A stretch of DNA of 42,076 nt, taken from Halanaerobiales bacterium. GTDB taxonomy: Bacteria > Bacillota_F > Halanaerobiia > Halanaerobiales > DTU029. A program made the translations under genes and the position numbers. Position 1 is the first letter of the stretch. Every line of letters starts with the position of its first letter. Below the pieces are notes generated by a model. The model worked only from the letters and a program-made list of their open reading frames with translations, was not told the DNA's origin and did no database searches. The DNA is taken from NCBI GenBank assembly GCA_016278415.1, contig JADQBV010000146.1, positions 1-42,076 on the forward strand, given 5' to 3'. Below, piece by piece: positions 11,186 through 34,263 of this stretch.

Positions 11186-13099
11186 TTGGCTAAGGAATTA
11201 GATGAGCAAATAGGAGTCGTTGTTGTTAGATCTGCTAGAGAAGTATTGGACTTCGTCAAGGCTTTTGGTTATGGAGCTATGGAAATATTATCTTTAAAAA
11301 ATAAAAAGGGTGAAAAAAGTTATGGGAGCCTGATAGGCTTTTTTATTATGCTAATAATTTCAGCTGCTATTTTTGTGTTTGCTGATAAGCTTATTTCTTA
11401 TTTACCTGAGGCAAGCTCCAGGATAGGTATGTTTTTAAGAAAGCCTATAATTTTTAAAATTCTTTCACCAGTTATTTTGGTTTTGTATATTAAGCTAAAG
11501 GGTGATGAAAGACTTCAGTTTTTAAATTCCTTTGATGAAAAATTTGAAGCTGTAGGACTTCACTCGAAGCTGGTTAAGGAAAAGATAGATGTAAATGGTA
11601 ACAAGATTAGGGTTAAGGATTATCCAAAGCTGATAAAGGAGATAAAAAGAAATGATACTAGAATATTTCTATTTACCAGCAGGGGCATACCTGTTGCAGA
11701 ATGGAGAAAAAAGATTCCAGAGCTGGAAAGTACAATGGATTTAGGGATACTGAGTATTGATTATAAAAAGGATTCCAGAAAAGTTGTAAGGATGGTTACA
11801 GTGCCCTATGAGAAAAAGGCCGAAAGAAGAAAGTACGATGATGCCTTTGAAAAGCTTGGCATATATACAAGGCTTGATGGGGTTAAGTATTTTCCAGAGC
11901 TGATTGAAACAACTGAAGATGGGAAAAAGGTTATTTATAAATTCAATAGTGAAGGACTACCCCTTACCCTTTGGAAGGATAAAAGGGAAAGTATAGAGTC
12001 AACCCTAAATACTAATGTTGTTCAGATAAAAAATGAAAAGGACAGCAAGAAGATCATTGAGCTTGTAACTGTACCCCTTAAGCATAACATCCAGGAGAGC
12101 TATCCCTGGAGTGATGATTATATTTCAGATAAGGACTTCGAAATTATACTAGGGGAAGGTCTGTTAGAAAGACAGGTTCTTAATTTTAACACTACACCCC
12201 ACGTGTTAATTGGCGGTCTTACTGGTGCAGGAAAGTCCGTTCTAGAAAGGGCCATAACCTGGCAGGTAATAAAAAAGGGAGCCAAGGCATTCTTTGTTGA
12301 CTTTAAGGGTGGCATAGAGCTTGATAGCTTTAAGGATTTTGGTGAAGTTGTATCAGATAGAAAGAGATTCCTTGTTATACTTCTTAAACTGGTCAAGGAG
12401 CACCATGAAAGGATTAAGGAGTTTAAGACCCTGGATGTTAAAAATATAGTTGAATACAATAAAAAGTCAAAAACCCCACTGGCAAGGGTTTTTGTTATTG
12501 TGGATGAAGTTGCAGAGCTATTTGATACTAGTGGAATAAGTGATAAAAACGAACTTGAAATTTATAAGGCTATAGAAGGGAAAATGAGCACTCTTGCAAG
12601 ACTATCCAGGGCTACTGGAATAAATATGATACTGGCTACCCAAAGACCCGATGCGACAGTAATCAAAGGGCAGATAAAGAATAATCTTGGAGCTAGAATA
12701 TCAGGAAGAATGACAGATAAGGAGCCTTCAATAATGATCCTTGGAAGTCCAGAAGCAACAAAGCTTCCGGAAGACATTAAGGGAAGATTCCTATACTCCC
12801 TGGGAGCTGAGCCAATAGAGTTTCAGGGATATTATTTCAAGGATACAGATATTAAGCCAGGCAGCTACCAAAAGGGAATTATGCTAACTGGCAGCGACAG
12901 GCTTGAGATTAAAAGTAATGTCGAGGTAGTTGATGACTTTGAAGAGTATAAAGATGATGAGCCATATGAAGAACCCGATGAAGAAATAGATGATCTGGAG
13001 GATGAAAATGACGATATAGAAGAATCAAGTGGAGTAGAAGAATTAACAGGCTATGAGGATGATGGGTATTGGACCGTTGAGGAAGATGAATTAGTCTAG
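11186..13099 (+). CDS. tcpA: FtsK/TcpA-like coupling ATPase of the conjugation machine
   Basis: 637 residues from TTG 11186 behind GAGAGGAGGG. Two membrane spans (about residues 48-68 and 86-104) precede two similar alpha/beta repeats (about 116-209 and 218-300). A C-terminal FtsK/SpoIIIE-type motor follows: Walker A GGLTGAGKS near 342, Walker B VFVIVDE near 435 and the ILATQRPDA motif near 482. The last 50 residues are very acidic. In Tcp plasmids and Tn916 this protein is the coupling protein that brings and pumps the DNA through the transfer channel. Being first in the operon and next to the candidate oriT fits. It lacks the gamma domain of chromosomal FtsK, which argues against a cell-division role. 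Confidence 0.9.
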   Translation: MAKELDEQIGVVVVRSAREVLDFVKAFGYGAMEILSLKNKKGEKSYGSLIGFFIMLIISAAIFVFADKLISYLPEASSRIGMFLRKPIIFKILSPVILVLYIKLKGDERLQFLNSFDEKFEAVGLHSKLVKEKIDVNGNKIRVKDYPKLIKEIKRNDTRIFLFTSRGIPVAEWRKKIPELESTMDLGILSIDYKKDSRKVVRMVTVPYEKKAERRKYDDAFEKLGIYTRLDGVKYFPELIETTEDGKKVIYKFNSEGLPLTLWKDKRESIESTLNTNVVQIKNEKDSKKIIELVTVPLKHNIQESYPWSDDYISDKDFEIILGEGLLERQVLNFNTTPHVLIGGLTGAGKSVLERAITWQVIKKGAKAFFVDFKGGIELDSFKDFGEVVSDRKRFLVILLKLVKEHHERIKEFKTLDVKNIVEYNKKSKTPLARVFVIVDEVAELFDTSGISDKNELEIYKAIEGKMSTLARLSRATGINMILATQRPDATVIKGQIKNNLGARISGRMTDKEPSIMILGSPEATKLPEDIKGRFLYSLGAEPIEFQGYYFKDTDIKPGSYQKGIMLTGSDRLEIKSNVEVVDDFEEYKDDEPYEEPDEEIDDLEDENDDIEESSGVEELTGYEDDGYWTVEEDELV

Positions 13100-13114
13100 C
13101 AGGAGGTGATTAAC

Positions 13115-14071
13115 ATATTAAACTTTAAGAAAAATCCATTTAAAATAAAAACCCTATGGTTTCAAAGGTTAGGAAAGGGACTGCTTTGGTTATTGGTAGT
13201 CTTTTTAATTTTGCGTGGAGTTGGGACTTTATTTAATAAAGACAGTGCTGCATCGGCCCAGGTAGTTGTTAGTGATTATGTAGCTAAAAGCAGCTATGAG
13301 GATAGAGTTAAGTTTGAAGCCTCCTCCTTTGCCGAGGGCTTTGGCTTTGAATATATGACTACAGGTGAAAGTGAGGATTACTTAAACAGATTAAAAGCAT
13401 ATATTCCAGCATATCTTTATGAAATGGCAAAATCAAATGGCGGTGTAAAAACTGAAGCTCTAGCTTCAAAGGCTTATAAAACTGAGTGGATATCAGATAG
13501 TCAGCTTAATGTTTATGTAAGGGTTAAGGTAAAGTATTCCTGGTCAGAAAAAATAGAAGATCAGGAGCTCATAAGGACAGACATTGATGATGTATATATA
13601 AAGGTTCCAGTAGCTGAGGTTGATGGAAGCTACATAGTGGAGGATTATCCAGCCTTTATACCAGGACCTAATAAGGCAGAAATAAAGTTTAACTTTTATT
13701 CAGGAACCCCTGTATCAAGTGAAGGCTCAAGGGAAATTAAGGGAGTGCTTGAAAACTTCTTTAAGACCTATTATAGTGGGAATTCCGGTGAGATAAGCTA
13801 CTACATGGCCGAGGGAAAGAAAATCGGAGGAATTGAAGGCAGGTTCAAGCTTCAAAGGATAGATGAAGTGAGTTCTTATTTACTTGATGAAAAGGGAAAT
13901 GAAATACTATCCCTTGTAACCCTTAAGGTAATTGATACTAAATCAAATATGGAATTTGAACAAAGGTTTAATGTTGCCCTTACCAATAGTGAGAACAGAC
14001 TTTATATTAAGGACTTTGATGTTAGGATAGGAAATTTAAATATTGGAAATGGAGGTAATGAAAATGAATAA
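13115..14071 (+). CDS. tcpC: TcpC/VirB8-like conjugation channel subunit
   Basis: About 318 residues. There is a single membrane span near the N-terminus (WLLVVFLILRG), then two extracytoplasmic alpha/beta domains of the NTF2-like kind seen in VirB8 and TcpC (around residues 65-185 and 200-315). These proteins form the structural platform of the transfer channel. The start is unusual: AGGAGG at 13101-13106 is followed by no ATG, GTG or TTG at a usable distance. GTG 13106 overlaps the ribosome site itself, while ATA 13115 lies eight bases after it and ATT 13109 two bases after it. I place the start at ATA 13115 as the best-spaced choice. The stop overlaps the next start (ATGAATAA). Confidence 0.75.
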   Translation: MLNFKKNPFKIKTLWFQRLGKGLLWLLVVFLILRGVGTLFNKDSAASAQVVVSDYVAKSSYEDRVKFEASSFAEGFGFEYMTTGESEDYLNRLKAYIPAYLYEMAKSNGGVKTEALASKAYKTEWISDSQLNVYVRVKVKYSWSEKIEDQELIRTDIDDVYIKVPVAEVDGSYIVEDYPAFIPGPNKAEIKFNFYSGTPVSSEGSREIKGVLENFFKTYYSGNSGEISYYMAEGKKIGGIEGRFKLQRIDEVSSYLLDEKGNEILSLVTLKVIDTKSNMEFEQRFNVALTNSENRLYIKDFDVRIGNLNIGNGGNENE

Positions 14072-14360
14072 AAAACTTAAAGTAATACTGACAACAGCTT
14101 TAATTTTGGTAATGTTAACTGTGCCTGTATTTGCTGAGAATGTATGGGCAAAGAATGGATATGACTGGATCAAGGATGGAGTTTGGTGGATATCATTAAT
14201 TGTAGTAATAGTAGTGGCTGCAAAGCTCCTGCTAAAGAAGATGTTTACCCAGTTCATTGGTTTTGCAGTACTGGCATCTATAGTACTAGTAATTATTGAT
14301 GCTCCTGAGAGACTAAAATCAATTGGGACAACCATATGGAGTATTATATTCGGCGGTTAA
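14064..14360 (+). CDS. Small signal-peptide membrane protein, VirB2-like layout
   Basis: 98 residues from ATG 14064, which overlaps the previous stop codon and follows a GGAGG. A typical signal peptide ends near AFA-E (residues 1-25), followed by a short loop and two hydrophobic spans (SLIVVIVVAAKLLL and FAVLASIVLVII). This layout and position match the small membrane proteins of Gram-positive T4SS operons, some of which are related to the pilin VirB2. Whether it forms a filament or only a channel part cannot be told. Confidence 0.6.
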   Translation: MNKKLKVILTTALILVMLTVPVFAENVWAKNGYDWIKDGVWWISLIVVIVVAAKLLLKKMFTQFIGFAVLASIVLVIIDAPERLKSIGTTIWSIIFGG

Positions 14361-14380: not shown

Positions 14381-14857
14381 ATGGAAGAAAAAGATTATGT
14401 GATACTAAGATCCTATAGATCTGTTTGGAAGCATGAAAGAAAAATTCATTCTATAGAAGGTATAAAGCTTTTATTCCCTGTATCACCTAACGAGGTGATT
14501 TACTTTGGGGTAAGCCTATTAATAGCAGTAGGATTAACCAAAGTAGTACCCTTTTTAGACAGGGTGCATTTTATAGTAAAATACGCTGCACTGCCCTTTG
14601 CTCTTATGAAATTTCTTACAAAGCAAACCCTTGATGGGAAAATGCCCCATAAGTTTTTCTTTGAATGGGCAGTTTTTTTATTGTCTCCTAAGAAGCTGGC
14701 AAGATTTAAGCCCATACAAGAAGGAAATAAAGTAAGATTTATAACTCCTGTAATCATGAGGGATATGGAAATAAAGAATAAAACCAATGAAGCTCTAAGG
14801 AGCAGTTTTAAGAGTAGTAAATCAAGATATAAATTAACGTTAAGAAAGGAGGGTTAA
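14381..14857 (+). CDS. tcpE: TcpE-family conjugation protein
   Basis: 158 residues behind TAAGGAGGA. The N-terminal part (RSYRSVWKHERKIHSIEG) is followed by two close membrane spans (about residues 38-75) and then LDGKMPHKFFFEW, the region conserved in the TcpE family, before a basic cytoplasmic tail. TcpE is a small inner-membrane subunit of the pCW3 and Tn916 type transfer systems and typically precedes the VirB4-like gene, as here (1 bp gap). Confidence 0.75.
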   Translation: MEEKDYVILRSYRSVWKHERKIHSIEGIKLLFPVSPNEVIYFGVSLLIAVGLTKVVPFLDRVHFIVKYAALPFALMKFLTKQTLDGKMPHKFFFEWAVFLLSPKKLARFKPIQEGNKVRFITPVIMRDMEIKNKTNEALRSSFKSSKSRYKLTLRKEG

Positions 14858-14858: not shown

Positions 14859-17417
14859 TTGTATAACTTTCCAGTAAAATATTTCGAAAAAAATCTAATA
14901 TTTAATGATTCTAACAAAGAGTGCTGGGCGATGTACAAGCTTGAGGGTTTTAACTATGACTTTCATTCTAATAAGAAAAAGATAGCCCTGCTTAACAGGC
15001 TGGCTAGGTTTATTGCCAATATAGGCGAAGAAGCTAAGATTCTAATAATACCTATAGCTCAAGATGTAGATGATCATTATAAAAGTCTCACAAATGAGCT
15101 TGATAAAAGCGATGTTCTTTATAAGTCAGCCCAGGCACATGCCCTTGGAACATCAAGATATCTAAAGGACAAAATCAAAAACAAGGGAAACTCAAATGAT
15201 TATGTTGTGTATATATTAACTAAGCTAAGGGCAAGTGAAAATATGATTAAGGATCTTAAGGATGCGGTCCAGTATTTTATAAAGAGTCCCATAAGAAGTA
15301 TTGAAGAACTTTTTAGTGTTGAGACAAAGACTATCCTTGAGAGAGAAATCAATAACTTTATGGGTCTGTGTGAAGAATACTTTAAAAGGCAAAATAAAAG
15401 AATTAGACTTAAAAAGACAGATGTGTACGATACCCAGTGGCTGATTAAGAGATCAACCAGACGTGGTATGGGTGAGGTTAAGATAAGGAAAAACCTAAGG
15501 AAAAAGCCAGGCAAAAAAGGTAGCAGGATAAGCAAAGAGAATTATGAGGAAATAGCCTGGACACCATTTTTTGAAAGAATCATAAAAAACGGCGAGTATG
15601 CCATAAGGGCCTATGAAAAGGATGTGCTAAGTCTCCCTGAAGGAGTAATGAATTTAGATGAGACAAGAGCTCTTAAGTTTGACCATGATGATGGAGAATC
15701 TTATCAGGCATATCTAGTGATAAACCATATACCCGATGGGATAGAGTTTCCAGGAAATGAATGGCTATTAGTTCTTCAGGATTATCCAATACAAATCGAG
15801 GTTTGCATTCATATTAATACTGAGGAGCATAAAGCTGGAATGAAAAAAATAAGCAGCAAGAAAAGAGAAATAAAGGGACAAATTGATCATATTGTTGATA
15901 GTGAAGATGAAATACCAGATGAACTAATGGATGCAAAGCAAAGTGCAGATGAAATGGAAGCAGAGCTAAAGGCAACAAGGGATCCGATATCTAGGGTATC
16001 CATTAGCCTTTGTCTTGCATCGGATAACAAACAAGAACTTGAAGATAATGTAAGTTTTATAAAGGAATTTTATGAGGATAATTATTTCATAATAGAAAGA
16101 CCCCTTGCTGATCAGCTAAAGCTCTTTATGGAATTTATACCTGGTACGGGAAGATACATGACAGATTATGTACTTCCCCTACCACCAAGGACCTTAGCTG
16201 GTAGCATGTTTGGAGCTACCAGGATGCTTGGGGATAATGTTGGTCCCTTTATAGCAACAACTGGAATACTTGAGAAAAATGTATTTCTAGATATGGCCAG
16301 AGCGTGTAGACTTAATAGATCTGCATCGGCGGTATTTCTTGGGAATCTCGGAGTAGGTAAGAGCTTTAATGCCAATCTCCTTATGTATCTTCAAGTACTT
16401 TATGGGGGAAAGGCATTAATATTTGACCCAAAGGGTGAGAGAAAGAAGTGGCTTGATACACTGCCAGAATTTGATGGAATGATTAATGTAATCGAACTAA
16501 CAGCAAGTATTGAGGATAAGGGTAAGCTAGATCCCTTTACTATCTATAAAGACGATTTAGAAGAAGCAGGGAACCTTGCCCTTGATATTTTATCAGAGCT
16601 CTTTAAGATAGACCCCAAGGATGATGAATATATAGTGGTCCTTGAAGCTATTAACTATACTAAAGAGCATCAAAGACCTTGTATGGAGGTTTTATCCGAT
16701 AGACTTATGAATTTTCCAGAAAGTGATGAATTTTGCACAGTAGCCAGAAAGGTAGGAAGAAGAATCAAGCTTCTTAGAAAAATAGGTATGGCTGGACTAC
16801 TCTTTGGAGATGGGACAGAAGAAGGGCTTGATTTTGATAGGAGGATAAATATCCTTCAAATACAAAACCTAAAGCTTCCCGACAGGGAAACAGAAAAAAA
16901 GGATTACAGTCAGGAGGAAGTTATCTCAACGGTACTAATGATACCTATAGCCAGCTTTGCTAAAAGATATGTGCTGTCTCCAAAGGATAAAAGCATATTT
17001 AAAGTTATCTTATTTGATGAATCTTGGGCACTCTCTAGGACCCAAAAGGGTGCAGAGCTTCAAAACTTCTTCTCACGAATGGGAAGATCTCTTTATGCTG
17101 GATCTATTTTAATAGGCCATTCAGTAAATGACCTAAAGGGTGAAGGGGTTGAGAATGCAGTTAGCTATAAGTTCTGTTTTTATCAGGATAATATTGAAGA
17201 AATAAAAAGAGTACTCAAGTTTTTAAATCTCGAGGTAACAGAAGAAAATATACAGGAGGTAAGAAATCTTAAAAACAGAGAATGTCTATTCCAAGACCTT
17301 GATGGAAGAGTAGGAAAGATAAGATTTGACTGTGTGTTTGAGCATCTTAAGGAAGCCTTTGATACAACACCAACTAAAGCTAAAAAAGAAGGTGAGGCTA
17401 ATGATAAGGCAATATAA
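14859..17417 (+). CDS. tcpF: VirB4/TcpF-like T4SS ATPase
   Basis: 852 residues from TTG 14859 behind AGGAGGG. The N-terminal 450 residues hold the VirB4-type assembly domain, with basic stretches and a helical, charged insertion near 330-380. The C-terminal motor has Walker A GNLGVGKS near residue 494, a following ALIFDPKGERKKW segment, Walker B KVILFDESWAL near 718, and a conserved-looking RMGRSLYAGSILIGHS segment. VirB4 proteins are hexameric ATPases at the cytoplasmic base of the channel that energise its assembly and substrate transfer. The gene overlaps the next by 17 bp. Confidence 0.92.
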   Translation: MYNFPVKYFEKNLIFNDSNKECWAMYKLEGFNYDFHSNKKKIALLNRLARFIANIGEEAKILIIPIAQDVDDHYKSLTNELDKSDVLYKSAQAHALGTSRYLKDKIKNKGNSNDYVVYILTKLRASENMIKDLKDAVQYFIKSPIRSIEELFSVETKTILEREINNFMGLCEEYFKRQNKRIRLKKTDVYDTQWLIKRSTRRGMGEVKIRKNLRKKPGKKGSRISKENYEEIAWTPFFERIIKNGEYAIRAYEKDVLSLPEGVMNLDETRALKFDHDDGESYQAYLVINHIPDGIEFPGNEWLLVLQDYPIQIEVCIHINTEEHKAGMKKISSKKREIKGQIDHIVDSEDEIPDELMDAKQSADEMEAELKATRDPISRVSISLCLASDNKQELEDNVSFIKEFYEDNYFIIERPLADQLKLFMEFIPGTGRYMTDYVLPLPPRTLAGSMFGATRMLGDNVGPFIATTGILEKNVFLDMARACRLNRSASAVFLGNLGVGKSFNANLLMYLQVLYGGKALIFDPKGERKKWLDTLPEFDGMINVIELTASIEDKGKLDPFTIYKDDLEEAGNLALDILSELFKIDPKDDEYIVVLEAINYTKEHQRPCMEVLSDRLMNFPESDEFCTVARKVGRRIKLLRKIGMAGLLFGDGTEEGLDFDRRINILQIQNLKLPDRETEKKDYSQEEVISTVLMIPIASFAKRYVLSPKDKSIFKVILFDESWALSRTQKGAELQNFFSRMGRSLYAGSILIGHSVNDLKGEGVENAVSYKFCFYQDNIEEIKRVLKFLNLEVTEENIQEVRNLKNRECLFQDLDGRVGKIRFDCVFEHLKEAFDTTPTKAKKEGEANDKAI

Positions 17418-19560
17418 AAAAATAATAGCCTTAGTAATACTTATAACAATAATGATGCCAAGCAGTGCCTTTGCCGAGGATCCTGCAAGCGAAGCCTTTC
17501 CTTCTGTAAAGGAGCTCTTTAATGGTGATAATGATAATATCTACCTTACAAAATACAAGGATAATTATTATCTTGACATGGAAGAGTATGTTTTCTTTAA
17601 AGAACCAGAAGGACTTGTAAATGTAGCTGCAAATATATTATTTAAAATACAGGTGTACCTTGGATATGCTTTAGTAACTCTTATTTATTATGCCTATGAA
17701 ATGCCCATATATGATATGTTCTCAGATGTAGTAGACCAGGTAGTAAGTGAGATGGAAACTGCCCTATTTGATGAACTGTCTTTAATAGCTATAGTGCTAT
17801 TGGGACTTTATTTTGCTATTAAGATGGCTGCAGAACAAAGAACTCAAATTTGGGTTGCTATAATTCAGGTGATAATTGTAATAGCTCTGGCTACTGCCTT
17901 TTACAAAGGACCATCGGGAATGCTAGATGCAATAAATGAAGGTACAAATGGAATTTCAAAGGCTGTGCTAGCTGGAACCTATAGGGCAACTAATGAAGGA
18001 CAGGATCCAGATTCAGCTGTAATGGCGGCAGCCAACAACACATGGTATATGTTTGTACATAGACCCTGGCAGATACTTGAATTTGGATCTGTTGAAATGG
18101 CTAAAAAACATGAGGACGAAATTTTGTCCCTACCATCTCTATCTGATGCTAGGCAAGTAATAATCGATGAATTAGCAGAAGATGAGGTGCATTTTACCAG
18201 TGACTGGGGGATAAAAAGGGTAGGGTATCTGCTTTTTAGTTTTATACCTTACCTTATACTTTTTTTAATAATAGCAGTATTATGTCTTTTGATTTGGGCA
18301 TATAAATTTCTTACCATAACCTTTATACTACTTGGAATATTTGTTTTTATTTGTGCATTAATACCAATGCTTGGAGGAATTAGAATTCTTCAAAGTTGGT
18401 TATCCAAGGTTATAGGAAGTGCTGCCATTACTGTAGTAGTATCCTTTTTCCTAGCTATAGTCTTTGCCTTTAATACAGTACTATATGGTTTCATCGATGA
18501 ATACGGAATATTTGTAGTAGTAATAGTTCAGCTGGTTATTGCAGCTGTAATATTTTTTAAAAGGGAATCACTGTTTGAACTTTTTACAATGGCAAGGCTT
18601 GCAGCTTCAGGGGCTTATCCGGTAAATAAGCAAATGCGAAGGGATACAAATATAGAAAATCGAGTAATGGAATACTCAAGAAACCTTAATCTTAGAAGAA
18701 ATAAAAACAGCAGCTACTACGATGAGGAATCAAAGGATGAGATTAATAGCTCTGGTTCTAATACCAGTGAAGGAAGCATAAGAAATAGTGCAAAGGCCTA
18801 TAACACAACTAATAAAGCAAGGCAGACGGGAATACCAAATTCAGATAAAGGATTAGAAAGGCAAACAGTAGGCTTTGGAGATCTTTATGATGAGATTCAA
18901 GAAGACACTAAGAGTGATAATGAAAACTTTAAAGAACTTATGAAAAAGGCTGAAAATATTTTAGAAAAGCAGTATGAATTACTTGGAAAAACGGCGGAAG
19001 AAAAGGCCGAAAAGCTTGGAAAGGAACCAAAGCATCACCCCTTTGTTTATAAGGTTCAGACAAGAGAAGCTCTCGGAGCTAAGAAGTTTGATGATAGAGA
19101 AGTAATAGCAGTAGCAAAGCAGCTTCAAAGGACCATTAATGCAGGTGGAAGTGCTGAGGACCTTGTAAAAGGCTTTGAAAATAGTAAGGACTTTGAAGTT
19201 TCAAGACCTAAGAATCTAATAGAAATAAAAATTGGTGAAGAAAGTTACAAAATTGACAGAGATGAAGCTAAAAAGATTGAAATTAAAGATATTTCAAAGG
19301 AATATGCAGATGAGTTTAACAAGGACCACAATAAAAATTATGATCCTCAGTTTATGGAAGAAATTATTAAGAAGTATGGTCACACTCAAGTAAGATATAT
19401 GCTTGATAAAATGAAAGAAATTCAGCTTAAGGAAAAGAGTATTAATAATCCAGCTGGGTACATGATTAAGGGCCTTAAAAATAATCATAGGGACAGTGTA
19501 GGTAAAAAGACACCTGAGGGAAACATAAATATGAGGGGTAACAAAGATGAAGATGGCTAA
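17401..19560 (+). CDS. tcpH: VirB6/TcpH-like polytopic channel protein
   Basis: 719 residues from ATG 17401 behind AAGGTGAGG; a longer frame overlapping the VirB4 gene is not likely. A signal peptide (residues 1-25, ending AFA-ED) leads to an extracytoplasmic N-terminal segment, a block of spans near 80-190, and a second block near 275-400. A hydrophilic, partly helical cytoplasmic tail of about 300 residues follows. This matches TcpH of pCW3 and Orf15 of Tn916, the presumed central membrane channel. The long charged tail probably contacts the ATPases. It overlaps the following gene by 14 bp. Confidence 0.82.
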   Translation: MIRQYKKIIALVILITIMMPSSAFAEDPASEAFPSVKELFNGDNDNIYLTKYKDNYYLDMEEYVFFKEPEGLVNVAANILFKIQVYLGYALVTLIYYAYEMPIYDMFSDVVDQVVSEMETALFDELSLIAIVLLGLYFAIKMAAEQRTQIWVAIIQVIIVIALATAFYKGPSGMLDAINEGTNGISKAVLAGTYRATNEGQDPDSAVMAAANNTWYMFVHRPWQILEFGSVEMAKKHEDEILSLPSLSDARQVIIDELAEDEVHFTSDWGIKRVGYLLFSFIPYLILFLIIAVLCLLIWAYKFLTITFILLGIFVFICALIPMLGGIRILQSWLSKVIGSAAITVVVSFFLAIVFAFNTVLYGFIDEYGIFVVVIVQLVIAAVIFFKRESLFELFTMARLAASGAYPVNKQMRRDTNIENRVMEYSRNLNLRRNKNSSYYDEESKDEINSSGSNTSEGSIRNSAKAYNTTNKARQTGIPNSDKGLERQTVGFGDLYDEIQEDTKSDNENFKELMKKAENILEKQYELLGKTAEEKAEKLGKEPKHHPFVYKVQTREALGAKKFDDREVIAVAKQLQRTINAGGSAEDLVKGFENSKDFEVSRPKNLIEIKIGEESYKIDRDEAKKIEIKDISKEYADEFNKDHNKNYDPQFMEEIIKKYGHTQVRYMLDKMKEIQLKEKSINNPAGYMIKGLKNNHRDSVGKKTPEGNINMRGNKDEDG

Positions 19561-22275: not shown

Positions 22276-22296
22276 TAAAAAAGGAAGGTGATGACA

Positions 22297-24544: not shown

Positions 24545-24555
24545 GGAGGATGCAT

Positions 24556-25658: not shown

Positions 25659-26048
25659 GTGTCACTTTCACTACCAGCTGAGCTTGTAATAATAGGAATA
25701 ATTCTAATAGCTATTCTATCCCTTTTCATGATTGGTATAGAATACTCTCTTCCTACCTTTGACAGGGCAAAGTTTGATGATATAAACAGTAAATACTTAA
25801 CACTACTAAATAAAAATGGAGGTCTTAGTGCTGATGACAAGACAAGTCTTGAAAACGAGCTAACCTCCCTTGGCTTTAGCAATATAAATATAACAGCCCC
25901 AGAAACAGTTTCCTGGGGCGAAGAAGCCATCCTTAGAGTTGTCGCAGATTATGACCTGGAGATAACTAAAACGGATGGTTCTAAGGAGATTATAACAAAA
26001 ACGGCGACCTATGAGAATAGTATTGTAGTTTTATCCTTAGGGAGCTAA
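25659..26048 (+). CDS. Pseudopilin-like (TadE-like) protein
   Basis: 129 residues from GTG 25659 behind AAGGAGG. A single N-terminal hydrophobic helix (LVIIGIILIAILSLFMIGI) precedes a small extracytoplasmic alpha/beta domain with alternating hydrophobic strands (ILRVVADYDLEI and after). It lacks the usual prepilin site. Minor pilins TadE and TadF have this one-span layout and complete the Tad pilus. It closes the continuous operon; a gap and more AT-rich genes follow. Confidence 0.6.
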   Translation: MSLSLPAELVIIGIILIAILSLFMIGIEYSLPTFDRAKFDDINSKYLTLLNKNGGLSADDKTSLENELTSLGFSNINITAPETVSWGEEAILRVVADYDLEITKTDGSKEIITKTATYENSIVVLSLGS

Positions 26049-26083: not shown

Positions 26084-26377
26084 ATGAACAACCTTGCAAA
26101 AGTAAAACATCTAATGAAATATAAAACAGCTTTATACTTTATTGACAAAGAAATAGATGAAAATTATAAAAGGCCAATTCATTCAAAAATATTGAAAAAT
26201 GTCTACTTTGAATATGTAGATATAGCTGGCTATTATCAAAATTATATAGCTTTAAATCTTAATGAAGAAATCTTTGGAGTCACATCTGATAATCATAGAC
26301 CCAATACTATAAAATTTATAATTGATTATTATAGAAGCTATGTTGTTGAGTATGAAATTATTGGGGCTGAGCTATAG
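26084..26377 (+). CDS. Hypothetical protein, 97 residues
   Basis: A soluble-looking, tyrosine-rich protein (LMKYKTALYFIDKEIDENYKR onward) with no cysteine cluster, membrane span or known motif. The start ATG 26084 has only a weak ribosome site (AAAGGCG). It is markedly more AT-rich in codon use than the pilus genes before it, so it may be a later insertion. No function is suggested. Confidence 0.5.
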   Translation: MNNLAKVKHLMKYKTALYFIDKEIDENYKRPIHSKILKNVYFEYVDIAGYYQNYIALNLNEEIFGVTSDNHRPNTIKFIIDYYRSYVVEYEIIGAEL

Positions 26378-26470
26378 GACTCAAGATATAAAGATTGATT
26401 ATGTTGCATTAGAGAATATCGATGCCCAATTAGATTAGTAGCTAAATTAGATATTAAGACAGGTGATTTT

Positions 26471-26548
26471 ATGGATATAAAAACAATCATAGTTATAGCA
26501 ATTCCTTTATTGTTAATTTTAGCAATGTTCAAGATGCATGAAAATTAG
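26471..26548 (+). CDS. 25-residue single-span membrane peptide
   Basis: ATG 26471 follows ACAGGTGATTTT. The product is almost entirely one hydrophobic helix (IIVIAIPLLLILAMF) with a short polar end. It could be a small membrane modulator, a toxin-like peptide or a chance ORF. Confidence 0.35.
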   Translation: MDIKTIIVIAIPLLLILAMFKMHEN

Positions 26549-26641
26549 TGCAATTCTGTGAAACTTAACAAATTAGTATAAAAAGAAGTTTGATTATTAA
26601 TTGTTAACTAAGATATTAGTAACGATGAAAGGAGGATTCAT

Positions 26642-26806
26642 ATGATAAAAAAATATATTGTGGAATTGGGTAAATATGAGAATTCTTTTGAATGTGTTTC
26701 TTATACTATTCACGCAAATTGTATAGAGTTTAAAGGTTGTGATGAAGATAATCATATTAAAATTATCCCTATAACTATTAGATTGAAAATAAATGAGAAT
26801 AGTTAA
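26642..26806 (+). CDS. Small hypothetical protein, 54 residues
   Basis: ATG 26642 is well placed behind GAAAGGAGG. The product has two cysteines (18 and 27) and a third at 33, and alternating hydrophobic and charged residues that suggest a small beta sheet. No family is recognised. It lies in a run of small AT-rich accessory genes. Confidence 0.5.
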   Translation: MIKKYIVELGKYENSFECVSYTIHANCIEFKGCDEDNHIKIIPITIRLKINENS

Positions 26807-26834
26807 TTAAGATTTATCAGTAGGCGGTGTTATA

Positions 26835-27056
26835 TTGACTAGAATTGAAAAGGTGGCCAATGAAAAGCCACTTTTTAAAATTGGACTGAATAGAAATTAT
26901 TATGTGTTTTGTAAATGCAAAGCTCCCTTGATTGATATAGTAAATAGAATTGGAAAATCAGAAAACTCTATATACTACAGAGAAAAGTATAGAGTATGGG
27001 CAATACGAGTGAAATCAAAAGCCCATAAAAAAAGATTAAAAGAAATTTTTAATTAA
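26835..27056 (+). CDS. Small basic hypothetical protein, 73 residues
   Basis: TTG 26835 lies behind AGGCGG. The product is strongly basic, with a C-terminus rich in lysine and arginine (RVKSKAHKKRLKEIF), which suggests nucleic-acid binding. A pair of cysteines sits near residues 26-28. No named domain could be recognised. Confidence 0.45.
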   Translation: MTRIEKVANEKPLFKIGLNRNYYVFCKCKAPLIDIVNRIGKSENSIYYREKYRVWAIRVKSKAHKKRLKEIFN

Positions 27057-27102
27057 TTACTAAAGCTATGTAGGAATGTATAAATTGATACAGGAGGGTA
27101 TA

Positions 27103-27820
27103 ATGATAAAAACTAAAATAGAATATGTTGATTATACATGGAACCCTGTAACAGGATGCAGACATGGGTGCAGCTACTGCTATGCAAAAAGAATTACCAA
27201 CAGATTTATGGAAAGGGACAAGGGAAAGATTGAAATATATAAGACCTTTAACAAAATTAATACGCCTGGAATAAATGAAATAGATAATAAGGGAATCCCA
27301 GCCTTTGCCTTTGGATTTGAGCCAACGTTGTGGGAAACAAGGCTCAATGAACCAAATAAAATAAAAAAGCCATCCAGGATATTTGTATCAAGCATGGGGG
27401 ATTTGTTTGGAGAGTGGGTTCCGAACAGCTGGATAGAGAAGGTTATGAATACAGTAATGGAGTGTGAAAGACACGCCTTTCTTTTTTTTGACTAAAAATT
27501 CAAAAAGGCTGGCTGAAGTAGATTTTCCTGAAAATGCTTGGGCTGGGATATCATATACAGGCTTTGGAATTCATGGAGTGCCTAATGGATGTAATTCAAA
27601 AGTAAAATTTGTATCAATAGAACCACTGTTAACTCAGCCAGAGTATTTACCTGAGGCTGATTGGTATATAATAGGAGCTCAAACAGGACCGGGAGCTAAA
27701 AGACCAAAGGATAGCTGGATTAAAAGTACTATAGACCTTATTAGGGAAATTAAAAAGCCTATATTTTTAAAGGGTAATCTGGAATGTGAAGAAAGGATTC
27801 AGGAATATCCAACAACCTAA
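27103..27820 (+). pseudogene. Frameshifted radical-SAM-like protein (DUF5131, phage Gp37/Gp68 family)
   Basis: The first part, from ATG 27103 behind ACAGGAGGG, begins with VDYTWNPVTGCRHGCSYCYAKR, in which Cys19, Cys23 and Cys26 form the CX3CX2C iron-sulfur motif. It stops at 27495, just after a run of eight T (27482-27489). The rest continues one frame over: LTKNSKRLAEVDFP, VKFVSIEPLL, DWYIIGAQTGPG and PIFLKG, all recognisable family segments. Removing one T restores 238 residues. The family is common in phages and mobile elements, function unknown. The middle (around GISYTGFGIHG) also looks shorter than usual. The break could be a true mutation, slippage on the T run, or a sequencing error. 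Confidence 0.75.
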
Positions 27821-27872
27821 AGGGTTATATAAAAAGTTTATAAATTTTTACCAATAGAAGGGAGTACAAACC

Positions 27873-28484
27873 ATGGAAGGCAGCATGTCAATAATACCTT
27901 TAGGTACTTATCGGGGGAAATACATAATTATTAATACAAAGGAAGTAAAGCATGGATTAATAGCTGGAATATCGTCGTGTAATAAGGAAGATTTGATAAA
28001 AGACATTAAAGAATATTTAAGAAATACTGATACACAAATTTATTCCATAGATCTAGAAAATGACAAAATAGATAAATGCCTGGAGGTAATATTAAAAATT
28101 AATCTTAAGGTTAGAAAACTCAAAAGAAGCAGCTCTACTAATGAAAGAATCTTTCTCTTTGTTGAAAATGCAACTTACTTATTTAACACCAATACTCCAA
28201 AAGAAAAATATTTAGCTCAAAAGGTTGAAGAATTATTAAATCTAGAAGCCGCAGATGTAGATATTCATATAATTATATCTACATATACCAGAAACAATCA
28301 GTATTTACCCATAAGAATTTTAGATATATTTGATTTTATTATTCTAGGATTTACACAGGATATTGATGAATCAATGTATTTACTAAAAAATGACATGGCT
28401 ACCAGGTTAATAGATGACATATCAAATAGCTTTATATTAAAGCATGGAGAAAAGATTGAACGATTCAGCATTAAAGTGAGGTGA
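27873..28484 (+). CDS. FtsK/TcpA-like pseudo-ATPase domain lacking the P-loop
   Basis: 203 residues from ATG 27873 behind AAGGGAG. Its layout follows the motor domain of the coupling protein at 11186. There is a PLGTYRGKYIII strand pair, then HGLIAGISSCNKEDLI where the motor has the Walker A segment, IFLFVENATYLF (93-104) where it has the Walker B VIVDEVAELF, and VDIHIIISTYTR where it has the MILATQRP segment. The C-terminal strands also correspond. The Walker lysine and the Walker B Asp-Glu are both gone, so ATP hydrolysis is not expected. It is not a decayed gene: the frame is open and the ribosome site good. It might bind TcpA or DNA as a regulator. Two nuclease-like genes follow. Confidence 0.65.
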   Translation: MEGSMSIIPLGTYRGKYIIINTKEVKHGLIAGISSCNKEDLIKDIKEYLRNTDTQIYSIDLENDKIDKCLEVILKINLKVRKLKRSSSTNERIFLFVENATYLFNTNTPKEKYLAQKVEELLNLEAADVDIHIIISTYTRNNQYLPIRILDIFDFIILGFTQDIDESMYLLKNDMATRLIDDISNSFILKHGEKIERFSIKVR

Positions 28485-28490
28485 ATATAT

Positions 28491-29333
28491 TTGGAATTTA
28501 AAAACGAAAGGGAGCTTCAGGAGGACCTGGCAAAGCACTTAAGAGCTGCAGGTCTTTTAACGTATACAGAAATTGATATTAAAGGAGGAAGGAGTGGTAG
28601 AGCTGATATTATAGCTATCAAACCTTCATATGCAAATAAGGACTGCAGAATATATGAAGTTAAAAACAACAGATCAACCTTTGATAACGATTCAAAATAT
28701 GAAAAATACTTTGATGTCTGCCACAGAATGTACATAGCATGCCCAGCTGGGATGATAGAAAAAAGTGAGCTGCCGACCAAGGTAGGAATGATAGTTCGAA
28801 GTGAAAAGGGCTGGCACGTGGTAAAGGGTGCCAAAAGGAACAATCCAAAGGATTTTAACACAGACTTTATTTTATCCCTTCTATACCGGGGCTATGAGGA
28901 AAACCTTCAGCAAAGAAAGCTAAGGGACAGGATTGTAGCAAAGGATAACATAGCCCTTAGTAGGAGAGCCAAAAATATTGGATTCGAGATAGCAAGAAGA
29001 CTTGATAAGGATAGAGAAACTGAAGTTGAAAGATGGGTCGAAAGCTGCAGTGAGCTTTTTCAAAAGCATCTAGGAATTGATAAAAGAGATTTTGGACTAG
29101 AAGAAGGTTTGCCAAGCCTATATAAACTAGAAGATGTTCTTAAATCAATTGATGGATTTGTCAAAGATATTAAATACATTAAAGATATAGGAGAATATCT
29201 ATCAAAATTAAATCTTCCTGAGGAAGCTGATAAAAAGAAATACTTTAGAAAAAGCAGAAGGTTTTTAAGGGACAAGGCCATGGGTTTTAAGGAAGAAACA
29301 AGCCTTCCTAAAAGGAGTGGCACTAATGGCTGA
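28491..29333 (+). CDS. PD-(D/E)XK nuclease-like protein (MmcB-like)
   Basis: 280 residues from TTG 28491 behind GAGGTG. Residues 1-130 form a restriction-endonuclease-like fold: an early glutamate helix, GRADIIAI with Asp39, and IYEVKNN with Glu56 and Lys58, the D-X16-ExK active-site pattern. A 150-residue helical, basic C-terminal region follows, probably for DNA or protein contacts. It starts 6 bp after the FtsK-like pseudo-ATPase and overlaps the next nuclease-like gene by 8 bp, so the three are probably made together. The target is unknown; DNA repair, processing of transferred DNA, or defence against other DNA are possible. Confidence 0.7.
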   Translation: MEFKNERELQEDLAKHLRAAGLLTYTEIDIKGGRSGRADIIAIKPSYANKDCRIYEVKNNRSTFDNDSKYEKYFDVCHRMYIACPAGMIEKSELPTKVGMIVRSEKGWHVVKGAKRNNPKDFNTDFILSLLYRGYEENLQQRKLRDRIVAKDNIALSRRAKNIGFEIARRLDKDRETEVERWVESCSELFQKHLGIDKRDFGLEEGLPSLYKLEDVLKSIDGFVKDIKYIKDIGEYLSKLNLPEEADKKKYFRKSRRFLRDKAMGFKEETSLPKRSGTNG

Positions 29334-29889
29334 GACTGAATTAACCAGGGAAATCAAAAGAGCTCTGATAGGATATAAACCACTTATCGGCGGTAATCTT
29401 AGAACCATCAGGTGGGCCGAGGAAGTAAATGTTGGTACAGGATACGTTGATGTAATAAGATTTGAGGATTATGTGACTAAAACCTATGGAGAATATTTCT
29501 GCTCTAAGGATAAGTGTAAGATCGAAGGATTAAATTATCCAAATAAAAACTGCAAAGGCTGTGTCTACAAGAAAAATGGTACGATGAAGGAACTTGGAAT
29601 AGCAACAACATGCTTTGAAATTAAAATTACAAAATCAGACTTCAAGTCTCAAAATGGCCACAATTTTGTTGGAAACTTTAACTATTATGTGGTTCCAAAG
29701 AAGCTATACAAAGAAATTAAGGACTTGGTTCCCAAAGACATAGGAGTCATCTTATACTATGGGAATTACTCACTAAGAAGAAAAAAGATGTGTGAATTTA
29801 AAGAAATAGATGACAGGGATTTAAGCCTTTATCTATACAATGCCATGAAAAAATGGGTAGATAAATGCAGCATGGAATACAGAATTTAA
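29326..29889 (+). CDS. Second PD-(D/E)XK nuclease-like protein with a cysteine cluster
   Basis: 187 residues from ATG 29326, behind AAAGGAG inside the end of the previous gene. It repeats the nuclease pattern: GYVDVIRF with Asp42 and CFEIKITKSDF with Glu98 and Lys100. Between them lies an insertion with Cys59, Cys64, Cys76 and Cys79, likely a zinc or iron-sulfur site. The C-terminal half includes VGNFNYYVVPKKLY, similar in position to FDVCHRMYIACP of the upstream protein. The two may form a heterodimer. The active site looks intact. Confidence 0.65.
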   Translation: MAETELTREIKRALIGYKPLIGGNLRTIRWAEEVNVGTGYVDVIRFEDYVTKTYGEYFCSKDKCKIEGLNYPNKNCKGCVYKKNGTMKELGIATTCFEIKITKSDFKSQNGHNFVGNFNYYVVPKKLYKEIKDLVPKDIGVILYYGNYSLRRKKMCEFKEIDDRDLSLYLYNAMKKWVDKCSMEYRI

Positions 29890-29903: not shown

Positions 29904-30428
29904 ATGAGAATATTTTTATATATGGCCATTGCAACAATATTTATATTCGTTGTTGTAGTTGGCTTTATGTTTTTCTTTGAAATACAAGACATAATAATAC
30001 TTGGAAACAAGGTAGAAAAAGCCCTTTATGCAGCTGGGTGGACAGGATTTTCAAAGCTGGATTTAAAAGAAATGGCTAGAAGAAATTTACTTACAAGCAT
30101 TGAAAACAGGGATGAATACCTTGATAAGAATCAGGCCAAAGATATAGTGGAGGAGTATATTAAGAAAAACCTAAAGCTTGATGCTTCGATGTATCCTACA
30201 ATAGATAGTTATATAACTGTGAAGGATCAGCCAGTAATAGTTGATGAAATAACTGTTTATAACCCAAATGATCTACCTGCTGCATCCAGCACCGGTTATT
30301 CTATGACCAGGACTACTATACACATTAGAGTTAGAATACCAATAGAGACAAGATTTACAGGCTTTAGATACGTTGAAAAATCAGTACATGTGGATACCAA
30401 TTCTTTTTTAACTGATGAACAAATTTAG
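29904..30428 (+). CDS. Single-span pseudopilin-like secreted-domain protein
   Basis: 174 residues from ATG 29904. An N-terminal hydrophobic helix (MAIATIFIFVVVVGFMFFF) is followed by a helical region and a C-terminal beta-rich part (TTIHIRVRIPIETRF). This is the one-span layout of TadE/TadG or DUF4320-like minor pilins, and a CpaB gene lies about 600 bp downstream. It could be a minor pilin or the tip part of the Tad pilus. The family assignment is by layout only. Confidence 0.5.
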   Translation: MRIFLYMAIATIFIFVVVVGFMFFFEIQDIIILGNKVEKALYAAGWTGFSKLDLKEMARRNLLTSIENRDEYLDKNQAKDIVEEYIKKNLKLDASMYPTIDSYITVKDQPVIVDEITVYNPNDLPAASSTGYSMTRTTIHIRVRIPIETRFTGFRYVEKSVHVDTNSFLTDEQI

Positions 30429-31010: not shown

Positions 31011-31733
31011 TTGAAGGTAAAAATAAATAAAAGAATGATTAAAATAGCAAGTGTGTGCCTGATATTAACAGTAGCACTCACTTTTTTCATATACAATTCT
31101 ATGAAAAAATCAATGAACCCGGAGCCGAAAAGGACCATAGCATATTTTACAAGGGATTTGGAAGCAGACACAATAATATCTTCAAAGGATGTAGTTTTAA
31201 AGAATACTCCCATTAGCCTGATTACAGATGGAGCAGTAGAAGATGCAAAGGAAGTTCAGGACAAAAGACTGATAATGAATGTAAAAAAGGGTGAAGCAGT
31301 ACTAAGTACCAAACTGACAGAAAGGGGAGACCTTAGGGTTGATACAAATAAAATGTGGACCATAGGAATTGATGTAAAAGATATATCAAATTTTCTAGGG
31401 GTTCAGCTAAAGCTTGGAGACTATTATGCCCTGGTGTTCAAAGGTGAAGCCACTACCAGGATAATGAACAAGATAAAAATAGTAGGAATAGTAGATGCAA
31501 CGGGCAAGGAAATACTAAGCTCAGGAAGTGGAGTTCCAAAAACCATTAATGTGGCGGTAGGATCCATGGAGGAAATGATTGAGATAAGTGATTCAAAGCT
31601 CAGGGGAATGTTTGAAATAATTAAACCACCAAAGGATTGGGAATTTACCTGGAAGCCTCCTGAGGAGCTTGAAGAAGTTGAAGTTGAGGGGGATAACATA
31701 ACAAATGGGGACCAAGGAGGAGATGGGATTTGA
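31011..31733 (+). CDS. cpaB: CpaB/RcpC-like pilus assembly protein
   Basis: 240 residues from TTG 31011 behind AGGAGGTG. An N-terminal membrane span (about residues 10-28) is followed by an SAF-like domain (TIAYFTRDLEADTIISSKDVVLKNTP, then RLIMNVKKGEAVLSTKLT) and a second beta-rich domain with the RIMNKIKIVGIVDATG strand, as in CpaB. The C-terminus is acidic and glycine-rich. CpaB is a periplasmic or wall-side Tad component in diderms; Gram-positive Tad loci keep a version. Here it is 7 kb away from cpaE/cpaF and leads its own short operon with an HD-GYP gene overlapping its stop codon. Confidence 0.78.
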   Translation: MKVKINKRMIKIASVCLILTVALTFFIYNSMKKSMNPEPKRTIAYFTRDLEADTIISSKDVVLKNTPISLITDGAVEDAKEVQDKRLIMNVKKGEAVLSTKLTERGDLRVDTNKMWTIGIDVKDISNFLGVQLKLGDYYALVFKGEATTRIMNKIKIVGIVDATGKEILSSGSGVPKTINVAVGSMEEMIEISDSKLRGMFEIIKPPKDWEFTWKPPEELEEVEVEGDNITNGDQGGDGI

Positions 31734-32296
31734 AAAACACATTAATGGTTGAAACAGATGTAACAAAAAAGCTCCAGCTTCCTGATCTTGTGCATGGGAT
31801 AAGGGTAGCTGAGTTAAGTGTTGAACTTGCTGAGTATATGAATTTAAATATAGATGTAAAAAAGCTATACCTATCTGGAGCTCTTCACGATATAGGGAAA
31901 GCTTTGGTTGACGAGAAAATACTAAATAAACCAGGACCACTAACAAACAAGGATATGCTTCAGATGAAAAACCATGCTAAGTATGGAGCTCTTATTTGCC
32001 TTGATATAGGGATAGATCAGGATATAATATCAAACATTCTTTATCATCATGAAAATTACAATGGAACAGGATATCCAAAGGGTCTAAGGGGTAAGGAAAT
32101 ACCCCTTGAAGCAAGAATCCTAAGAATAAGTGATACTTACTGTGCATTAACCACCAAAAGACCCTATAGAAATAAAAAGACGAAATGGGAAACATTGGAT
32201 ATAATGGAAAAGGAAAAAAGGTTTTATGACCCAATACTATATAAGGGATTTATAGAGCTTATGAAAAAGGGAAAGGGGATAGAAGATGATAAATAA
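31730..32296 (+). CDS. Stand-alone HD-GYP c-di-GMP phosphodiesterase
   Basis: 188 residues from TTG 31730 behind AAGGAGG. The HD pair is His53-Asp54 in ALHDIGK, with further HD-GYP marks at HHENYNGTGYPKGL (His106, His107, GTGYP 112-116), EIPLEARIL and RISDTYCALTTKRPYR (Asp135). These are the metal and substrate residues of the family, which hydrolyses cyclic di-GMP. No sensor domain is fused, so it may be controlled by expression or a partner. The start overlaps the cpaB stop, so both are made together, pointing to c-di-GMP control of the pilus. Confidence 0.88.
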   Translation: MKNTLMVETDVTKKLQLPDLVHGIRVAELSVELAEYMNLNIDVKKLYLSGALHDIGKALVDEKILNKPGPLTNKDMLQMKNHAKYGALICLDIGIDQDIISNILYHHENYNGTGYPKGLRGKEIPLEARILRISDTYCALTTKRPYRNKKTKWETLDIMEKEKRFYDPILYKGFIELMKKGKGIEDDK

Positions 32297-32687: not shown

Positions 32688-32702
32688 GCAGCTTAAATTA
32701 AT

Positions 32703-32801: not shown

Positions 32802-32807
32802 GATTTT

Positions 32808-33056: not shown

Positions 33057-33065
33057 TTATCAAAA

Positions 33066-33102: not shown

Positions 33103-33153
33103 AAATAACTTATAAAAGATTTATAACTTATATATAAATAGGGGAGATTACAA

Positions 33154-34263
33154 ATGAAAAAGATTACTGCATATGTTCTCATATGTCTTATGATTATTAA
33201 TATTTTTGGCACTGTAGCCTTTGCTGAGGATAATAAACTTGGTGATGCAAAGGATACACTGCTGCAGCTGGTAAGCTTCGTTAGAACCTTTAAGGATGCC
33301 ACAGAGCACTGGGCCAATAAATTCATTGCAAAGCTTTATGATTCAGGATTCATTAAGGGTTATCCCGACGGAACCTTTAGACCGGATAATCCCATAAAGC
33401 GAGGAGAATTCACTAAAATATTTATAACAAGCGTTACAGGTGAGGATCCAGGAAACAGTACTGAAGATCACTGGGCACAGAATTACATAAAAGCTGCAGT
33501 AAATGGCGGTTATTTAAAACCAGAAGAATTTGCCAGCCTTGATAAAAACATTACCAGGGCTGAAATAGCTATGATGATATCTAGAGCTCTGGATGTGCAG
33601 CCTAATAACGTGGAAAAACTAAAAAATAATATAACCGACTTTAGCAGCATATCAAATAAATACAAGGAGCATATAGCAAGGGTTTATGCAGCTGGGATAG
33701 TAACAGGATATGAGGATGGAAGCTTTAGGCCTGATGGAGAAGCTTCAAGAGCTGAAGCATCAACCATGGTTGTAAGGTTCCTTGATGAAAGCGAAAGAAG
33801 AGTTCCTAAATTAAAGGAAGAACCAAAAATAGTAATAGATGGTGAGGAAATACCCGTTGAGAATAAGGAGATAATTCCATATTATATTAAGGTAGAAGAA
33901 ATTATTAAAGATAGTGGACTGCCATATTTAAGTGTATACAACGGAGATGATACTATTTCGTTGAGCATTCTACCAAAACAAAGTGCTTCAATACATGAAG
34001 AAGTTTTTTCCTATGTTGGGACAACAAAAGGTGAGCCAAAGGAAAGACCACAATATATTCAAATTTACCACATTGAAGGAAAAGAATATTATAATGTCGC
34101 TGAAAAAATACTTAAGGAATTTTATCCAAACAGTTACGATGAAGTACTTGAAAAATTTAAATCTATGAAATGGTCAGGGAAGAAATACGAAGGAGAAGCT
34201 GAGGGAAGAAAATACTTAATAGACAGTAGAGCCACATTTACAGCAATACGAATTGGCAGGTGA
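33154..34263 (+). CDS. Cell-wall protein with three SLH domains
   Basis: 369 residues from ATG 33154 behind AGGGGAG. A signal peptide (residues 1-24, ending AFA-ED) is followed by three S-layer homology domains. The first, about 48-96, reads HWANKFIAKLYDSGFIKGYPDG; the second, about 113-155, has HWAQNYIKAAVNGGYL; the third, about 166-212, has IVTGYEDGSFRPDGEASRAEA. The remaining 150 residues form an unknown alpha/beta domain. SLH domains bind pyruvylated wall polymers. The protein may anchor surface structures such as the giant protein next door, which has no anchor of its own. Confidence 0.9.
   Translation: MKKITAYVLICLMIINIFGTVAFAEDNKLGDAKDTLLQLVSFVRTFKDATEHWANKFIAKLYDSGFIKGYPDGTFRPDNPIKRGEFTKIFITSVTGEDPGNSTEDHWAQNYIKAAVNGGYLKPEEFASLDKNITRAEIAMMISRALDVQPNNVEKLKNNITDFSSISNKYKEHIARVYAAGIVTGYEDGSFRPDGEASRAEASTMVVRFLDESERRVPKLKEEPKIVIDGEEIPVENKEIIPYYIKVEEIIKDSGLPYLSVYNGDDTISLSILPKQSASIHEEVFSYVGTTKGEPKERPQYIQIYHIEGKEYYNVAEKILKEFYPNSYDEVLEKFKSMKWSGKKYEGEAEGRKYLIDSRATFTAIRIGR

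Follow-up and report, generated by a model that had tools for sequence, protein, structure and literature searches.

Tad pilus genes joined to a Tcp/Tn916-type transfer operon in a Halanaerobiales bacterium, and the recurrence of this pairing in Clostridia

Introduction

Whether conjugation in a monoderm bacterium can employ a pilus is the question raised by a stretch of 42,076 bases from a Halanaerobiales bacterium (contig JADQBV010000146.1; hereafter "the window", with positions in forward-strand numbering). In this stretch, the genes of a Tcp/Tn916-type type IV secretion system (T4SS) run directly into those of a Tad pilus. According to a current review, monoderm conjugation systems encode no conjugative pili. 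In this report, we propose that the locus belongs to a conjugative element whose transfer operon joins the two machines, with the pilus reaching, holding or pulling in recipients before DNA passage; we place the probability of this explanation at about 0.6. Directly observed are the joint layout, its conservation, the association of different Tad modules with one T4SS clade, and the association of one Tad clade with two kinds of T4SS.

Results

Gene order and the T4SS half

Every open reading frame (ORF) between 11186 and 26048 is on the same strand, and the intergenic gaps, as measured from mechanical ORF starts, range from -98 to +60 nt. This map bears out an earlier, sequence-only reading of the DNA, which described a one-strand run from a Tcp-type T4SS into cpaE, cpaF, tadB, pilin, tadC and a pseudopilin gene. 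The boundary between the two halves is 14 nt (the M23 hydrolase gene stops at 20515, and cpaE starts at 20530), and a strong ribosome-binding site precedes cpaE. The T4SS half, with the gene upstream of it, is composed as follows:

9938..10792, + strand: Replic_Relax family protein (PF13814, 77.6 bits, over cut-off)
11186..13099, + strand: TcpA/FtsK-type coupling protein (T4CP; PF01580, 44.6 bits)
13106..14071, + strand: TcpC, VirB8-like (PF12642, 87.1 bits)
14043..14360, + strand: TcpD-like membrane protein (NF040685, E 1.4e-4, below cut-off; present in all four nearest relatives)
14381..14857, + strand: TcpE, VirB3-like (PF12648, 62.3 bits)
14859..17417, + strand: VirB4/TcpF ATPase, AAA_10 (PF12846, 285.9 bits)
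17401..19560, + strand: VirB6/TcpH-like CD3337/EF1877 membrane protein (NF046089, 205.6 bits, over cut-off)
19547..20515, + strand: M23 cell-wall hydrolase in the VirB1 position (PF01551, 65.0 bits)

The Tcp/Tn916 type (mating-pair formation class MPF_FA) is defined by genes for an FtsK-type T4CP, TcpC, TcpE, VirB4 and a VirB6-like protein, and these are found here in one operon. The T4CP is ~44% identical to homologues on plasmids and on integrative and conjugative elements (ICEs), and the Replic_Relax protein is a possible relaxase. The VirB6-like ORF opens at 17326, with 17401 as the likely start of the protein. The usual VirB1-like hydrolase of Tcp/Tn916-type systems is of the CwlT (lysozyme/NlpC) type; the one in the window sits in the expected place but is instead an M23 peptidase.

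Terminator-like hairpins are commoner than expected between 10700 and 30500 (30, compared with 11.0 in shuffled sequences, standard deviation 3.1). Neither a cyclic diguanosine monophosphate (c-di-GMP) riboswitch nor any other known RNA was matched at Rfam gathering scores in the window or in loci L004-L007.

Identity of the Tad components

The genes that we assign to the Tad half, together with one membrane protein among them, are these:

20530..21729, + strand: CpaE/TadZ-like protein (PF13614, 42.9 bits; CpaE-like ATPase fold)
21730..22275, + strand: membrane protein with no counterpart in the four nearest loci
22288..23670, + strand: CpaF/TadA pilus ATPase, T2SSE (PF00437, 52.8 bits)
23654..24544, + strand: TadB platform protein (ORF from 23573; conserved, and its model resembles T2SSF cytoplasmic domains)
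24550..24801, + strand: Flp-like pilin with a KG/WGLIE site (alignment of eight)
24862..25644, + strand: TadC platform protein (alignment of eight; weak T2SSF match in three of eight)
25659..26048, + strand: TadE-like protein 1 (in all four nearest relatives, at 39-45% identity)
29904..30428, + strand: TadE-like protein 2 (alignment of eight)
31011..31733, + strand: CpaB-like protein, SAF (PF08666, 28.8 bits; TIGR03177, E 5.5e-8, below cut-off)

Of the components expected of a Tad/Flp pilus system, CpaB/RcpC and TadZ/CpaE are both present. The P-loop lysine is absent from the CpaE-like protein in all 14 aligned sequences. For the ATPase, we considered VirB11 as the identity and rejected it: with a profile of the CpaF subfamily, built from eight relatives, solved CpaF chains reach 160 bits and those of VirB11 reach 79 bits, and all eight relatives share the P-loop, GEIR and T-x-H positions without variation. 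The window CpaF scanned by itself against NCBIfam is nearly even between the two (TadA family 117.3 bits, VirB11 112.2 bits, both below cut-off). This CpaF is listed on two contigs, and the longest has 42,076 bases.

No Pfam match at E 0.01 was obtained for TadB, TadC, the pilin or the TadE-like proteins of the window, and their identities rest on gene order, profile and fold evidence. The TadB model, with a mean predicted local distance difference test (pLDDT) score of 71.5, resembles the cytoplasmic domains of EpsF, OutF, PilC and SpoIIIAB (Foldseek probability 0.80-0.99, E > 0.6). One of eight TadB relatives has a weak T2SSF match, as do the three TadC relatives listed above, and both are helical proteins in the expected positions. 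The window pilin conforms to the G/xxxxE site, and the glycine at -1 is kept in all eight aligned pilins. The AlphaFold2 model of TadE2 (pLDDT 83.5) combines a long N-terminal helix with a beta sheet, a predicted fold that fits a pilin-like protein.

The nearest relatives

A scan of the window CpaF against 84,980 species genomes yielded four relatives, three from Alkaliphilus and one from a Clostridiaceae bacterium; two pattern scans of viral contigs yielded none. All four loci are colinear, with TcpC-TcpD-TcpE-VirB4-VirB6 followed by CpaE-CpaF-TadB-TadC-pilin-TadE1-TadE2-CpaB. Identity to the window ranges from about 29-40% (pilin) up to 60% (VirB4, CpaF). The M23 gene lies between VirB6 and CpaE in three of the four, with a different ORF there in L004. 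The genes for a surface-layer homology (SLH) protein and a giant protein follow in three; the contig of L006 runs only 1.7 kb past cpaB and has other ORFs there. An HD-GYP gene follows cpaB in two. Three features set the window apart from the other four loci: its pilin gene precedes tadC, it encodes an additional membrane protein, and it has the insert described below.

Recurrent pairing and exchange of modules

In a sample of the order (393 genomes), the CpaF subfamily, taken at a threshold of E 1e-70, occurs in seven genomes, and T4SS genes adjoin it in every one. Five of these (G001-G004, G155) have Tcp-type sets; the other two (G041, G199) have TrbL_4 and PrgI-like genes, with a VirD4-type or VirB4-type ATPase also in the neighborhood. 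The window CpaF and those seven form one clade (support 100/99). The sequence-only reading would have been undone had the two halves been separate in all relatives; the conserved pairing contradicts that outcome.

More distant CpaFs (E 1e-60) were found in 24 further genomes of a class sample (391 genomes). T4SS genes adjoin them in G542 (full set), G689, G457, G648 and G484, with VirB4 directly upstream in the last three. The link in G689 was scored from a hydrolase gene beside CpaE on a 5.4-kb contig, its VirB4 being on another contig. In the remaining 19, home-made profiles detected no T4SS, several of these genomes being judged on flanks of 2.6-12 kb. On a tree of 39 CpaF rows, 14 of which bear the T4SS label, that label requires 4 changes, compared with a mean of 11.7 after shuffling (0/500 as low). 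A second tree, with G337 and G625 added and five free-standing rows dropped, needs 5 changes, compared with 12.1 (again 0/500). Six rows labeled "chr" were judged on 4-kb loci and on their contigs having no VirB4 row; L018 is the one among them that was read at length (as L123).

Close relatives of the window VirB4 occur in 12 genomes (nine from the order sample; G542, G625 and G689 via the class sample). Tad genes lie downstream in eight of the ten that are readable (G001-G004, G204, G337, G542, G625); contig ends cut the loci of G276 and G689. The VirB4s of G204 and G337 are near-identical, and their CpaFs are far apart on the tree. The nearest row to the window on the VirB4 tree is G625 (65%), which has a CpaF of another lineage. 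The CpaF of G337 is divergent (T2SSE, 19.2 bits, under cut-off) and, like that of G625, very long-branched. The slot behind one T4SS clade has thus come to be occupied by several Tad lineages.

Among 13 class genomes with more distant VirB4s (about 408-557 bits), none has CpaF-TadB-TadC. These control loci, which include near copies, we take from their gene order to be Tn916-like; one (L116) has a weak 631-aa match to the CpaF profile (E 7e-4) without TadB or TadC. Where the halves do meet, the genes may overlap, as M23 and CpaE do in G004 and G542 and PrgI and CpaE do in G041, or abut, as VirB4 and CpaE do in G648 (all by mechanical ORF ends).

A plasmid search with CpaF returned at least 5000 records, all below 60% identity, with the best among the matches listed at about 26-30%, and was uninformative. 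VirB4 matched 742 plasmid records, three of which were examined. The closest VirB4s in PLSDB (42-43%) are on Enterocloster bolteae plasmids, which have the same Tcp gene order as the window but no Tad genes in the two stretches examined; both stretches have a sortase. In the plasmid of E. bolteae ATCC BAA-613 (L002, 2732-14509), a 3,925-aa SpaA-type protein and a sortase precede the transfer genes. Judged by gene content and order, then, Tad and monoderm T4SS genes are coupled recurrently and modularly in Clostridia.

A second kind of T4SS

The label FATA, which is our own, denotes operons with TrbL_4 matches over cut-off and PrgI matches under it. Six CpaF loci were read at length (L120-L125), a non-random set in which three were chosen for a VirB4-type match on the contig. 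Those three (L120, L121, L122) are linked to a T4SS; by home-made profiles the other three are not, and the neighbors in L124 resemble what we take to be ICE genes. L121 has, in one direction, genes for a VirB2-like protein, TrbL, PrgI, a peptidase-like protein, CpaB, a CpaE-like ATPase, CpaF and two platform-type proteins; the run continues with two small TadE-like proteins, wall and surface proteins, and VirB4. The stretches of L120 and L122 that were read resemble it.

A search of 297 genomes for VirB4 of the TrbL/PrgI kind gave 26 rows in 20 genomes; seven of the rows were unreadable (contig ends or broken genes). CpaF-TadB-TadC lies beside or inside the operon in 13 of the 19 readable loci, a proportion that leans towards Tad because the model was seeded only from Tad-linked loci. 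We also observed that one genome, G204, has two distinct T4SS-Tad loci, one of the Tcp type at ~0.70 Mb and one with a TrbL/PrgI-kind VirB4 at ~0.39 Mb.

Whole elements and the prepilin peptidase

In G004, a ~44-kb element (located at about 105-149 kb of C5) splits sigK, and a large serine recombinase is encoded near one of its boundaries; the flanking halves correspond to positions 6-117 and 114-226 of the 227 of SigK. Within it are the T4SS, the Tad genes and an SLH protein, along with a giant protein of 1,643 aa and a prepilin peptidase of 145 aa that has a GGGD motif. A comparison of two stretches for an att repeat gave only a 10-nt exact match. Like skin elements, the G004 element lies within sigK, and a tie between a conjugative element and sporulation is possible. 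On an 81-kb contig of G001, the gene for a 2,442-aa giant protein is followed one gene on by that of a 141-aa peptidase, also with a GGGD motif; a gene upstream in G001 looked actin-like, which a check did not confirm. With these peptidases, the predicted Tad set is complete in some elements. Some prepilin peptidase is present in all ten genomes tested. The window contig ends 628 nt past its giant gene, about where two relatives carry the peptidase, and the missing peptidase of the window fits this contig end. The contig has no exact terminal repeat of 16-3000 nt that would point to circularity.

Downstream genes and other features

Beyond tadE1, the following features complete the set:

26084..29889, + strand: insert, with DUF5131 in two overlapping frames, small ORFs and an MmcB-like protein
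31730..32296, + strand: HD-GYP protein, HD_5 (PF13487, 110.5 bits; HDIGK and GYP motifs)
33154..34263, + strand: SLH-domain surface protein (PF00395, 107.6 bits)
34270..41448, + strand: giant secreted surface protein, 2,392 aa (homologues in the equivalent place in relatives)

Gene packing is tight only to about 26377, and the insert splits tadE1 from tadE2; past it, tadE2, cpaB and the HD-GYP, SLH and giant-protein genes follow in that order on the + strand. The downstream genes that the sequence-only reading had listed (CpaB, HD-GYP, SLH and giant protein) are present, and the insert is the chief amendment to that reading. None of the four nearest relatives has the insert; in them, tadE2 comes directly after tadE1. 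PADLOC assigned its first DUF5131 ORF to the candidate-defence models PDC-M41B and PDC-M30B. The HD-GYP protein is a possible c-di-GMP phosphodiesterase. The N-terminus of the giant protein is signal-like, and its residues 99-233 match the Athe_2463 domain (NCBIfam NF047340, 74.1 bits, over cut-off); we consider it a candidate mating adhesin.

Upstream of the operon, agr-type quorum-sensing genes (1009-3294) encode AgrB (82 bits) and a response regulator. A candidate AgrD peptide precursor is the 44-aa product of a small ORF (1868-2002) that has a strong ribosome-binding site. The agr-type genes may set the timing of transfer. A UvrD-like helicase is encoded at 3585-5546 on the minus strand (244.6 bits against GajB models).

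Discussion

How might the two machines work together? In the mechanism that we favor, CpaF and TadB/TadC would polymerize, and perhaps retract, the Flp-like pilin after its cleavage by the peptidase, and the CpaE-like protein would place both machines at one site; a CpaE-like gene accompanies even two T4SS loci that showed no further Tad genes. The Tad filament would catch a recipient, and the T4SS would then pass the DNA. A surface adhesin, either formed or anchored by the SLH and giant proteins, would strengthen this contact, and opening of the wall would fall to the M23 hydrolase. Swapping one Tad module for another might, speculatively, change which recipients are caught or permit escape from pilus-targeting phages. 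More tentatively, and with somewhat less than even confidence, we extend this scheme to Clostridia at large: T4SS conjugation in these monoderms could be widely pilus-based, with Tad as an inherent but replaceable part of the mating apparatus, set within or right behind the transfer operon in at least two unrelated kinds of T4SS; its repeated replacement would retarget the element to new recipients or let it dodge pilus phages. The conserved pairing, with varied partners on both sides, lends partial support to the sequence-only reading's proposal that a Tad pilus serves in mating; that the pilus is built and aids mating is inferred from the genes.

Several findings weigh against a mating pilus. 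No prepilin peptidase was found in the window. The pilin glutamate at +5 is clear in only four of the eight aligned sequences, shifted in one and absent in three; TadB and TadC are divergent; and the TadE2 model has no match in the Protein Data Bank at E 0.001 or better. Further, G457, G648 and G484 have CpaE-CpaF, with or without TadB, and no pilin was seen there. In G222 and G362, the 4.7 and 6.4 kb that were read past VirB6 show no Tad gene other than a CpaE-like one, and G041 has no VirB4 beside its cluster but one of the TrbL/PrgI kind ~59 kb off. CpaF-TadB-TadC is missing from six of the 19 readable TrbL/PrgI-kind loci.

Two other explanations seem to us unlikely, and about equally so. 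The Tad genes could encode a short pseudopilus or an ATPase/platform complex within the cell wall, with no external pilus, that is part of the transfer channel or exports the giant protein. Such a complex would stand in for the VirB2/VirB11 parts said to be lacking in monoderm T4SSs. The placement of Tad genes inside the operon of L121, between PrgI and VirB4, agrees with this idea, as do the three T4SS loci without a visible pilin and the near-even score of the window CpaF by itself. However, CpaF chains score twice as many bits as VirB11 chains with the CpaF profile, and the full loci retain genes that would be superfluous for a channel ATPase: one for a pilin-like protein, two of the TadE-like type and, in several cases, one for a prepilin peptidase.

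Alternatively, the Tad pilus could be cargo: an adhesion or biofilm organelle that serves the host cell and is dispensable for transfer. In a survey of type IV filaments, Tad tops the compared systems in transfer and in plasmid location (PMC6668835). Some co-occurrence with T4SSs is therefore to be expected of so mobile and often plasmid-borne a system, which favors the cargo explanation and counts against ours, and the Tad genes of Cutibacterium acnes plasmids have been proposed to support colonization (PMC5696575). Set against cargo are the position of the module, in or directly behind the transfer operon with genes overlapping or abutting in several genomes, and the filling of the slot by different Tad lineages while 13 more distant T4SS loci have none. 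Chance adjacency or an assembly join is hardly credible, being contradicted by the conserved gene order and by like junctions in independent assemblies, including an Alkaliphilus pronyensis isolate contig and a 3.37-Mb contig.

The sequence-only reading held that a built-in pilus would be new in kind, which overstates the case, as pili of the R64 type and of PAPI-1 act in conjugation and plasmids of C. acnes and Sulfobacillus carry both gene sets. The R64/I-complex (IncI) resembles our element in having, on a single mobile element, genes for a T4SS and for a distinct type IV pilus; its pil genes are described as responsible for contact in liquid mating, and in that study surface mating did not require type IV pili (PMC10286972). 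It differs in its diderm hosts, its MPF_I T4SS and its thin pilus of the pil rather than the Tad type. PAPI-1 of Pseudomonas aeruginosa is an island conjugated via a type IVb pilus that recognizes recipient lipopolysaccharide (LPS; PMC5297154). Its host is diderm; a monoderm recipient has no LPS. We take its pilus not to be a Tad pilus.

Two groups of Gram-positive plasmids, compared with the window by their published descriptions, carry both gene sets. Linear plasmids of C. acnes (p15.1.R1 type) have a tad locus near FtsK, VirB4 and TcpC, and a putative pilin was detected in the surface fraction; they are actinobacterial, and the authors call the functional link unclear (PMC5696575). The backbone of Sulfobacillus thermotolerans pL15/pY0017 includes a MinD-like protein, CpaF, TadB/TadC, a relaxase, TraG and VirB4; these plasmids differ in their T4SS genes (TraG, TrsL/TrsB), and their Tad genes are called a putative type II secretion system (PMC6803676). 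A T4SS and a pilus on one element are already known. In the open-licence literature, which was the scope of our search, we found no paper on recurrent pairing, in the breadth described here, or module exchange in Clostridia.

Among the means by which monoderm donors find and hold recipients, some cell-wall-anchored adhesins are known. For Clostridia, a Tad pilus encoded with the transfer operon would be a direct and testable further answer: it predicts mating in liquid and sensitivity to pilus phages. Elements of this sort can be recognized by a simple marker, namely cpaF within 15 kb of virB4.

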